Shown: piece after piece, positions 50,680 to 52,942 of the stretch | Layout: each line of letters begins with the position of its first letter | Position numbering within the stretch: the stretch's first letter is position 1 | DNA from: Oscillospiraceae bacterium | Lineage (GTDB): Bacteria; Bacillota; Clostridia; Oscillospirales; Ruminococcaceae | Assembly (NCBI GenBank): GCA_017472735.1 | Contig: JAFUOD010000005.1 | Location: 1-58,203, forward strand | Direction: 5' to 3' | Length of the DNA: 58,203 nucleotides | Position numbers and translations under genes: made by a program | The notes under the pieces: model-generated | Database searches by the model: none | What the model was told of the DNA's origin: nothing | Seen by the model: the letters and a program-made list of their open reading frames with translations, nothing else

Positions 50680-50925
50680 ATGAAGCGTTTACTTTCTTGC
50701 GAGTTCAACATGGATACTGCTTGTGTGGAGCTGAAATTCACCGATGGTAGCATGATTGCCATTGACACCATCGCTGTGGAGAACGAGGTTGCCGACAATA
50801 TGTATCAGCGGTCAGAGCTTGACTATCTGATTTACAATGATCCGATTGGATATGCGGATTTGATACTGAACGGCGATCCGGAAACGTATCTGAAAACTGC
50901 AACAGAGTATAAGAGCCTTGATTAA
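50680..50925 (+). CDS. DUF6061-like small protein
   Basis: This 81-residue acidic protein has an N-terminal beta pattern (LLSCEFNMDTACVELKF) and the conserved-looking YNDPIGYADLILNGDPETYL. I recall this as the DUF6061 type, seen in clostridial integrative elements; function unknown. It follows rlmD by 10 bases with the AAGGAGG ribosome site, so it is read with the recombinant rlmD gene. Confidence 0.65.
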   Translation: MKRLLSCEFNMDTACVELKFTDGSMIAIDTIAVENEVADNMYQRSELDYLIYNDPIGYADLILNGDPETYLKTATEYKSLD

Positions 50926-50976
50926 ACACTTTATATAGCAAAGTGTGAACAAATTGTAACAATCCACACATACCCA

Positions 50977-51005
50977 TTGACAAGGTATGTAAAACCGAGT
51001 ATAAT
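50977..51005 (+). promoter_or_regulatory. Consensus promoter of the trp operon
   Basis: TTGACA (50977-50982), exactly 17 bases, then TATAAT (51000-51005): a perfect match to the housekeeping consensus. Transcription would start near 51012, just before the T-box stem. Confidence 0.9.
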
Positions 51006-51024
51006 TATAAATAATTTAATACAT

Positions 51025-51303
51025 CAAACCGTTGAAGCGGAGATAACGGCAATGATGCCTTTACAGAGAACCTGTGGTGCTGAGAGTCAGGTAAGAAACA
51101 AGTTGTCAAATGGACCGCTGAGGGCGCAGTCAAATGTGAATTTCACAAAGTATTCTGCGACGTTGTAGGCAGGCGTAACTTGCCGAGGATATGTTGGTAT
51201 CCTGCTAAGTGCACGGGGCAAACCCGTGAATCAAGGTGGCACCGCGGATAAGTGTTTTTATTCGTCCTTGACAGAGTGTATATCTCTGTCAAGGACGTTT
51301 TTG
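51025..51303 (+). promoter_or_regulatory. Tryptophan T-box leader (UGG specifier)
   Basis: The stem I base pairs AGCGG (51036-51040) with CCGCT (51115-51119), and the triplet immediately before that strand is TGG (51111-51113), the Trp specifier, followed by A. The conserved T-box sequence AAGGTGGCACCGCGG stands at 51234-51248. The terminator stem 51263-51275/51285-51297 is 13 bp with a run of T. Uncharged tRNA-Trp should pair with the specifier and T-box and prevent termination. The leader lies directly after a consensus promoter and before trpE. Confidence 0.93.
51263..51302 (+). terminator. T-box-controlled terminator
   Basis: Arms 51263-51275 and 51285-51297, 13 bp, 9-base loop, five T after it. 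It is mutually exclusive with an antiterminator using the T-box sequence. Confidence 0.9.
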
Positions 51304-51312
51304 CTTTATAAG

Positions 51313-51357
51313 ACTCCTTTGACTGAGATAGAAGTTCAAAGGGGTATTTTCTTTGTT
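51313..51357 (+). terminator. Second terminator-like hairpin
   Basis: Arms 51313-51322 and 51336-51345 form 10 bp with one wobble and a 13-base loop, followed by ATTTTCTTTG. It lies between the T-box terminator and the leader peptide. It may be a weaker second stop or a structure controlled by leader-peptide translation. Confidence 0.55.
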
Positions 51358-51372
51358 TCAGGAGGTTGCGAT

Positions 51373-51423
51373 ATGCTGTATACAAAACGTTGGTGGCGCA
51401 CTGTGCGCCGAATATTGAAATAG
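51373..51423 (+). CDS. trpL: trp leader peptide with two adjacent Trp codons
   Basis: A 16-residue frame (MLYTKRWWRTVRRILK) starts 6-7 bases after a perfect AGGAGG and ends 52 bases before trpE. Two Trp codons in tandem (TGGTGG, residues 7-8) are expected in a peptide that senses tryptophan supply by ribosome stalling. The codons sit in a GGCGCAC/GTGCGCC-type hairpin. It lies downstream of the T-box terminator, so it would act only on transcripts that passed it, as a second checkpoint. Confidence 0.8.
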   Translation: MLYTKRWWRTVRRILK

Positions 51424-51475
51424 AATCATCCCAATAAATAACCAACTTTACTATACCTATTTGGAGGAACTGATT

Positions 51476-52942
51476 ATGAAAATACAGCCAACTTTTGCCC
51501 GAGTCAAAGAAATCGCAGCAGCCGGTCATTATAACGTATTGCCGGTCAGCCTTGAAATCCTTTCTGACTTCACCACACCGATTGAAACGATGAAGATACT
51601 GAAAAATGTATCTACTCATTGCTATATGCTGGAATCCGCTCAAGCAAATGAAACTTGGGGACGTTACACCTTCCTCGGATTTGACCCGAAATTGGAGATT
51701 ACCTGTATTGACGGAGAAATGAAGATTGGCAATCTCAAGATTAAGACAGATAACCCATCCGACTATCTCCGCCAGATTCTTGCCGATTATAAAAGTCCCC
51801 GTTTCGATTATCTTCCTTCCTTTACAGGCGGTCTTGTCGGATACTTCTCCTATGATTATCTCACCTACAGCGAGCCGACCGTCAAATGTGATGTAGAGGA
51901 CAGCGAAGCGTTCAAGGATGTCGATCTGATGCTGTTTGATAAAGTTATCGCATTCGATCATCTACGCCAGAAAATTATTCTCATCGTCAATATGTCGCTG
52001 GATGATCCGGAAACTGGTTACAACAAAGCGGTTATGGAATTGAAACAGCTTGTTCATCTTCTCCGTCACGGTGAAAAAACGAATGAACCGGGTGGCAAGC
52101 TGCTTGGAGAAGTTACGCCGTTGTTCAACAAAGAGCAATTCTGCGGTATGGTGGAAAAGGCAAAGCACTACATCCGTGAGGGCGATATCTTCCAAATCGT
52201 GCTTTCCAACCGACTGAGCGCTCCCTTTGAGGGAAGCCTACTTAACACCTATCGCGTACTCCGCACCATCAATCCCTCACCGTATATGTTTTATTTTTCG
52301 GGAACCGACGTGGAGGTTGCAGGTGCTTCCCCAGAAACTCTTGTAAAATTAGAAAACGTTGTACTTCACACTTTTCCGCTTGCAGGAACAAGACCGAGGG
52401 GCAAAACCGACGAGGAAGACAAAGCACTCGAAGCAGAACTGCTTGCTGACGAAAAAGAGCTTGCCGAGCACAATATGCTCGTTGACCTCGGAAGAAACGA
52501 TCTCGGAAAGATCAGCAAATTCGGCACGGTGCAGGTGGAAAAGCTACATTCCATCGAACGGTTCTCCCACGTCATGCACATCGGCTCTACGGTGCGTGGT
52601 GAAATTGATGATAACCACGATGCATTGGATGCCATCGAAGCTGTACTTCCTGCAGGAACTCTGTCGGGTGCGCCGAAGATAAGAGCTTGCCAGCTCATCG
52701 GAAAACTGGAAAACAACAAGCGTGGCATCTATGGCGGTGCCATCGGATATATCGACTTCACAGGCAATATGGATACCTGTATTGCTATCCGCATTGCTTA
52801 TAAGAAGAACGGTAAAGTATTCGTGAGAAGCGGAGCCGGAATTGTGGCGGATTCTGTACCCGAAAAGGAATATGAGGAATGCCTGAACAAAGCCAAATCT
52901 TCACTTAAAGCATTAGAACTTGCACAGGAGGTGGAATTATGA
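51476..52942 (+). CDS. trpE: Anthranilate synthase component I
   Basis: TrpE converts chorismate to anthranilate with ammonia from TrpG. The 488-residue protein has the Trp-binding feedback motif LESA near residue 52, then the chorismate-binding domain with IFQIVLSNR, LAGTRPRG, AEHNMLVDLGRNDLG and GIVADSVPEKEYEE. The retained LES motif predicts inhibition by tryptophan. Start ATG 51476 lies 6 bases after GGAGGAA; the TTG at 51461 overlaps that site. It overlaps trpG by 4 bases. Proline codons are mostly CCG, unlike the chromosomal genes to the left. Confidence 0.96.
   Translation: MKIQPTFARVKEIAAAGHYNVLPVSLEILSDFTTPIETMKILKNVSTHCYMLESAQANETWGRYTFLGFDPKLEITCIDGEMKIGNLKIKTDNPSDYLRQILADYKSPRFDYLPSFTGGLVGYFSYDYLTYSEPTVKCDVEDSEAFKDVDLMLFDKVIAFDHLRQKIILIVNMSLDDPETGYNKAVMELKQLVHLLRHGEKTNEPGGKLLGEVTPLFNKEQFCGMVEKAKHYIREGDIFQIVLSNRLSAPFEGSLLNTYRVLRTINPSPYMFYFSGTDVEVAGASPETLVKLENVVLHTFPLAGTRPRGKTDEEDKALEAELLADEKELAEHNMLVDLGRNDLGKISKFGTVQVEKLHSIERFSHVMHIGSTVRGEIDDNHDALDAIEAVLPAGTLSGAPKIRACQLIGKLENNKRGIYGGAIGYIDFTGNMDTCIAIRIAYKKNGKVFVRSGAGIVADSVPEKEYEECLNKAKSSLKALELAQEVEL

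Follow-up and report, generated by a model that had tools for sequence, protein, structure and literature searches.

The leader upstream of the tryptophan operon trpEGDCFBA in the analyzed window, i.e., the whole stretch of 58,203 nucleotides, is best explained as a stacked sensor of tryptophan starvation, a reading that we regard as probable and under which the operon may test how much tryptophan is available at several stages in turn. The anatomy of this leader is real and confirmed: the T-box, the second hairpin and the peptide with its Trp codons are all present, stacked within one leader as an earlier sequence-only reading had described. Judged by sequence comparison, the peptide belongs to a leader family that is at home mainly before T-box-controlled genes for tryptophan synthase beta (trpB), whereas the window carries it upstream of trpE. 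The leader contains the following features.

50977..51005, forward strand: sigma-70-type promoter TTGACA-17-TATAAT, matching the consensus at 12/12 positions
51023..51272, forward strand: T-box leader specific for tRNA-Trp (RF00230, 94.3 bits, cut-off 93)
51111-51113, forward strand: T-box specifier TGG, within AAATGGACC
51263..51297, forward strand: T1, the intrinsic terminator of the T-box, 14 pairs followed by TTTTT, with its 3' arm at 51284-51297
51313..51345, forward strand: T2, a second hairpin predicted by folding, whose 5' half contains segment S (51314-51327)
51360..51365, forward strand: Shine-Dalgarno sequence (SD) AGGAGG of the leader peptide, read from the sequence
51373..51423, forward strand: leader peptide open reading frame (ORF) MLYTKRWWRTVRRILK, 16 codons from ATG at 51373 to a TAG ending at 51423, supported by family conservation
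51391-51396, forward strand: Trp codons 7 and 8 of this ORF, read from the sequence
51394..51410, forward strand: GGCGC...GCGCC hairpin with its 5' end inside the second Trp codon, from folding, with a stem that recurs in relatives
51463..51467, forward strand: SD GGAGG of trpE, read from the sequence, 39 nt past the leader stop
51476..52942, forward strand: trpE (TIGR00564, over cut-off), opening gene of trpEGDCFBA, an operon that extends to about 57874

The consensus promoter, the T-box with a UGG specifier and terminator, and the 16-residue peptide with neighbouring Trp codons had all been named from the sequence alone, and each was borne out. The specifier fits the regulated pathway, and the T1 fold (51264-51310) reached -23.6 kcal/mol with z -9.7 vs shuffles. 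A second T-box aptamer was not found, i.e., 50930-51600 gave a single RF00230 match even at E<=5. Like trpE, the genes trpG, trpD, trpC, trpB and trpA scored over the cut-offs of their protein models; trpF was assigned by its best match, with a score below its model cut-off. The second terminator-like hairpin held up in part only. T2 does fold (-14.6 kcal/mol, z -2.5, equalled by 7/200 shuffles), but its U-run is broken in the window (ATTTTC), and a terminator scan of 50850-51600 left it unflagged, with T1 as the sole terminator-like site there. L061, the closest relative, has a longer, unbroken T2 stem.

In Escherichia coli, the trpL attenuator places a short Trp-Trp-Arg peptide before trpE, with a hairpin starting in the Trp codons. 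The window peptide likewise carries Trp-Trp-Arg before trpE and a hairpin that starts from its Trp codons, and the stretch around these codons (51389-51402, GTTGGTGGCGCACT) resembles trpL, presumably by convergence or chance. Unlike in trpL, the scan of 50850-51600 found no terminator after the window peptide, T1 and T2 both lying upstream of it, and this argues against control by transcription attenuation of the trpL type.

A covariance model built from four leaders was run on 391 genomes of the class and matched in 15. Of eight loci inspected, four were T-box leaders before stand-alone trpB (L196, L198, L199, L203) and four were not. A trpB protein search gave matches in 339 of the same 391 genomes, and 84 upstream regions were read (30 plus 54 fetched), or 85 with the query's own locus; the 54 comprised 47 close matches and, for contrast, 7 distant ones, leaving out a few contig-end fragments and most distant matches. 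A T-box lay nearby in 38/85 regions. When 20 fetched regions were scanned with Rfam, T-boxes over or under the cut-off appeared in 13, and all six scanned motif-bearing regions had them (L241, L242, L243, L271, L285, L287).

Between the T-box and trpB, an SD-preceded ORF with the motif [KR][RC]W was present in 27 of the 38 T-box-led loci, where 0.07 were expected from dinucleotide shuffles (26/37 without the query's own locus L154); ORFs containing any Trp were found in 30/38 loci vs 6.3 expected. The family shares the consensus L-T-K-R-W-R, most members having a single Trp, and the 27 motif-bearing trpB leaders spread over 18 family labels. Of the 11/38 trpB T-box loci without such an ORF, two (L219, L238) carry a variant form of the Trp leader. 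L226 (G692:C1) carries TGA in place of the Trp codon (MFLLIKR followed by the stop), apparently a natural loss of this codon.

For trpE, 110 upstream regions were sampled (30 including the window plus 80, sets that were not de-duplicated), 104 of them with a T-box nearby. The motif occurred in three of these 104, namely the window, L061 (the same site as G069:C25) and L062; a fourth pattern match, L113, was judged to be chance. Trp-containing ORFs in general were not enriched after trpE T-boxes (17/104 vs 15.1 expected). In all 30 motif-bearing leaders (27 trpB, 3 trpE) the TGG specifier context is found at the same place. The assertion that few trp operons have both devices hence stands for trpE and falls for trpB, where the design is common and therefore not peculiar to the window operon. 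The window's own genome holds a second case, MLLTKRWRSLIF ahead of a stand-alone trpB (G000:C8).

The gapped pattern SD-ATG-AARCGATGGCG gave 24 rows in the 391 genomes, representing 23 distinct sites in 22 genomes. At sixteen of the 23 the match was a leader in frame, followed by trpB or a TrpB-like gene, and 15 of these were known from the trpB search; the remaining seven were not in-frame leader ORFs. The sixteenth leader site, L329:1223-1612 (G078:C2), combines a T-box of 103.5 bits with a leader MFILVKRWR...; the gene that follows is TrpB-like and belongs to another model than the trpB genes of the remaining loci (first 120 residues compared).

Translation of the 16-codon frame, proposed from the window sequence, is supported by synonymous codon changes in the related leaders. 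For 27 distinct seven-codon blocks the BLOSUM score was 3.51 in frame vs 1.81 and 1.74 in the two shifted frames. Codons in the blocks that differed by a single base did so synonymously in 329 and nonsynonymously in 192 cases, counted pairwise, so that related sequences enter repeatedly. The family makes use of every one of the four Thr codons and of five of the six for Leu. Taken together, these sequence comparisons strongly suggest translation of the leader. Rare CGA encodes the Arg before Trp in 24/26 leaders, the two others, window included, having CGT and one further row having Cys; CGA makes up only 5 of 248 Arg codons in 17 trpB genes, and therefore this codon, or the RNA around it, appears to be under a constraint of its own. 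The 17 TrpB proteins checked, one of which (L223) has an in-frame stop, contain no Trp, and hence the leader Trp would be the only translated Trp codon until the end of trpB. From the Trp codon, the restriction to Trp genes in our searches and the anti-TRAP precedent, we infer that the leader senses Trp, and uncharged tRNA-Trp would then be sensed twice, as had been suggested. Counting of tandem Trp codons falls short as a full account, since most relatives have one Trp and have kept its flanking residues.

As in TnaC, where the nascent peptide arrests the ribosome, L-T-K-R-W-R might itself cause arrest, e.g., with Trp or indole bound and with CGA aiding the pause. The residues around the single Trp are kept via synonymous codons, which codon counting does not need, and this agrees with such an arrest, as do the CGA bias before Trp and the fact that indole is a substrate of tryptophan synthase beta. 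We nevertheless consider it unlikely that the peptide acts in this way, as the first Trp is found at residue 6-10 in 30/30 leaders, and therefore little of the chain would be within the exit tunnel; furthermore, in L212, L227, L271 and L287 this Trp is followed by a residue other than Arg or Trp.

The position of the leader relative to the next gene bears on a different proposal, i.e., that a finishing ribosome covers the next start or passes to it and a Trp-stalled one does not, as in anti-TRAP. Stop-to-SD spacing is not conserved, with values between -39 and 120 nt in the 30 loci. Eight of the 30 leaders end <=15 nt from the SD or overlap it, and the leader stop of L329 shares bases with the start codon of the gene (ATGA), which would suit such steric or coupled control; in contrast, the other 22 end >=20 nt upstream of the SD, the window with its 39 nt among them, and we find this proposal rather doubtful.

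It had also been suggested that CCAA...TATTTGG sequences fold over the trpE ribosome site. This did not survive comparison with shuffled sequences: the SD region (51425-51500) folds with -3.5 kcal/mol, and 171/200 shuffles were at least as stable. More broadly, a stall at Trp-Trp could melt the GGCGC hairpin and a GUUGGU:ACCAAC pairing and in this way free or mask the trpE SD. The hairpin stem is common to the window, L061, L062, L154 and L211, with a different loop in these relatives, and GUUGGU/ACCAAC are paired in the folds of the window and L154 (L061 has AUCAAC by eye, not in the fold). Taken alone, the hairpin in the window has a z of only -1.3, and by eye it is mostly missing from single-Trp relatives. 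A stall would moreover release ACCAAC to pair with the SD region, i.e., act with the wrong sign. Modelled stalling did not raise the predicted accessibility of the trpE SD in the window (0.44 to 0.37), and over 30 loci the mean SD accessibility was 0.49 with no ribosome, 0.51 with a stalled ribosome and 0.61 with a ribosome at the stop, with stalling moving 4 loci up and 3 down. A structural link from Trp stall to SD exposure was hence dropped as unsupported, since the SD is not opened upon modelled stalling, and structural attenuation of this kind appears improbable to us.

Segment S is complementary to the T1 3' arm in the window (-12.9 kcal/mol), with marginal significance (P 0.06 and 0.075 in two analyses). 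In the 127 Trp T-box leaders with limits that could be set for T1, the stretch following T1 paired with the T1 3' arm at P<=0.05 vs shuffles in 58 (trpE 40/91, trpB 18/36) and at P<=0.01 in 31. As control we used 41 T-boxes from the own genome and relatives, where T1 was found slightly differently and could be delimited in 27, two of them Trp. Of the other 25, called non-Trp from their genes where visible and not from specifiers, three paired at P<=0.05, all in the window's genome, and the mean z was -0.04. When regions were exchanged among the 127 loci, the pairing energy summed over the own regions was -1472.7 vs an exchanged mean of -1262.8 (s.d. 24.2) and none of 5000 exchanges was as low, a result that includes base-composition effects. 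With GC-matched exchange, own pairing beat the median in only 77/124 loci (60/124 for a control arm), and many loci therefore lack the pairing. Among the 58 selected loci it did so in 50/57, in a set that is biased. Compensatory changes between the T1 3' arm and S are visible, e.g., in L224 (GTTAAGG with CCTTTAAC), L135 (CTCTTCAGGGG with CCCCGGAGAG), L105 and L110.

These changes in relatives also bear on whether the small ORF arose by accident, with T2 being a decayed T1 duplicate without a role. The interrupted U-run of T2 in the window, the silent terminator scan and the likeness of T1 and T2 would fit such decay; given the compensatory changes, the excess of motif-bearing ORFs before trpB and their codon pattern, we hold it to be very improbable.

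In predicted folds of the window, the T1 arm pairs with the T2 5' half in the ON state, and T2 forms in the OFF state. With the T1 arm set free or removed in folding, T2 switches in the window and in L003; in L061, where the relay pairing has P 0.124, and in L213 and L229, T2 still formed in the predicted ON state. Other loci switch an SD: in L008 the gene SD changes on folding (accessibility 0.80 vs 0.30), and in L224 the leader SD switches by structure, with a mean accessibility of only 0.24 vs 0.11. Over 17 leaders with S, leader SD accessibility was 0.35 ON vs 0.25 OFF (6 up, 2 down), and over 56 loci that of the gene SD was 0.44 vs 0.37 (20 up, 6 down). Both sets of predicted accessibilities are no more than suggestive of a relay that exposes the leader SD or the gene SD. 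T2-like hairpins also occur without the peptide at 13 further trpE loci, which were picked by eye and then measured, and they look tied to the T-box terminator. Pairing and modelled folds together suggest that T2, or an SD-masking hairpin, may be switched by the T-box via strand displacement.

For the stacked sensor we propose the following course. T-box antitermination by uncharged tRNA is established for the T-box family, and by family membership we assign to the window T-box that it would bind uncharged tRNA-Trp, favouring the antiterminator so that T1 does not form. The free T1 3' arm would then pair with S and block T2, as sequence and folding indicate; with T1 formed, T2 would stop leaky transcripts. 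In some relatives S appears instead to sit in a hairpin that would mask either the leader SD or the gene SD. Read-through transcripts would carry the translated leader, with the consensus L-T-K-R-W(-W)-R and mostly CGA before the Trp codon. By analogy to anti-TRAP, scarce Trp-tRNA would most likely slow the ribosome at the Trp codon, adjusting translation of the next gene. A more specific combination is a tentative idea that we hold with less than even confidence: an L-T-K-R-W-R nascent-chain Trp sensor, tied to T-box-controlled trpB across Clostridia, would have moved to trpE in the window's lineage, and strand displacement by the T1 arm would govern a second terminator or a hairpin over an SD, applying a single tRNA decision first to transcription and afterwards to translation.

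The nearest known plan, as the sequence-only reading had recognized, is that of Bacillus anti-TRAP, which has a T-box and a Trp leader peptide in the same order. Chen and Yanofsky reportedly described in 2003 and 2004 that the Bacillus subtilis rtpA (anti-TRAP) leader combines the two. The leaders studied here similarly have an SD-preceded short ORF with a Trp codon between T-box terminator and gene, and a tRNA-Trp T-box followed by a putatively translated Trp leader peptide would likewise place transcription and translation control in series. Unlike in rtpA, where the leader stop lies close to the next SD, the next genes are trpB or trpE and not anti-TRAP, the family usually has a single Trp within conserved L-T-K-R-W-R, the stop-to-SD distance varies and is not short in the window, and the window has the additional hairpin T2 in between. 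The anti-TRAP layout is outlined in PMC11255114. In bacilli, trpE and thrZ leaders with two to three adjacent T-boxes are described (PMC2494555); these share serial control in one leader, whereas T2 has no T-box of its own and is linked to T1 by complementarity. Histidine leader peptides of bacilli (PMC2965389) are also amino-acid leader peptides in Firmicutes, but there they replace the T-box and here both are present. A T-box review treats terminator and sequestrator platforms as separate types (PMC7583486), and contiguous riboswitches have been surveyed (PMC12452182).

Among the titles and abstract openings listed by literature searches, none revealed such a trpB leader peptide or relay, which does not show absence from print, and 'KRWR' did not occur in the papers listed. 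Descriptions of T-boxes usually give them a single expression platform, and a recurrent second platform has so far been seen mainly in Trp T-boxes. If the stacked sensor is real, many Clostridia would control tryptophan synthesis by successive checks on transcription and on translation, and the anti-TRAP layout of Bacillus would extend to biosynthetic genes of another bacterial class. Some thirty natural leader variants are at hand for testing the peptide sequence vs the Trp codon alone.

Several searches were set aside. The pattern AARCGNTGGTGGCGCNNNNNGCGCC matched eight stretches in viral contigs, which we attribute to chance (the contigs have a GC of 0.60-0.64 and show no trp leader); one viral contig, L157, holds a T-box-core-like string. 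With two mismatches, the pattern matched in 52 of 193 genomes drawn as relatives of G423, where a reversed-pattern control was also common, and nothing was kept from this search except the own site of L062. In 20 genomes of the family of G069, exact matches occurred only in G069 and two-mismatch matches in two others. A DNA search of 394 genomes of the order gave E<=0.1 in 63, and <1e-6 only in G000 and G069 (two places). Over the T-box, the window is 94.8% similar to L211 and 94.5% to L061, other trpE leaders reaching <=91%; an argument for T-box transfer from the two high values was rejected because the alignment is too loose. L153 (G000:C6:11529-11699), another T-box match within the window's genome, looks by eye like a Trp T-box, in a fetched sequence that ends before the terminator. 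In a genome of the same genus, the trpE match G012:C2:69224-69730 is a fragment with an in-frame TGA.

L062 (JAAZBM010000009.1) comes from a metagenome-assembled genome labelled Sumerlaeota. Its trpE locus is 90% identical to that of the window and has the same kind of leader, the frame of which overlaps the trpE start; it may be a mis-binned contig or reflect a transfer. L212 and L287 (G772:C12, G694:C77) carry two serial leader ORFs, MFIFSKRWQGLKHE and MYILSKCWRTGKVLKEIK, between T-box and trpB. In L287 the last residues differ, and in the second ORF a hairpin, seen by eye, follows right after the Trp codon.
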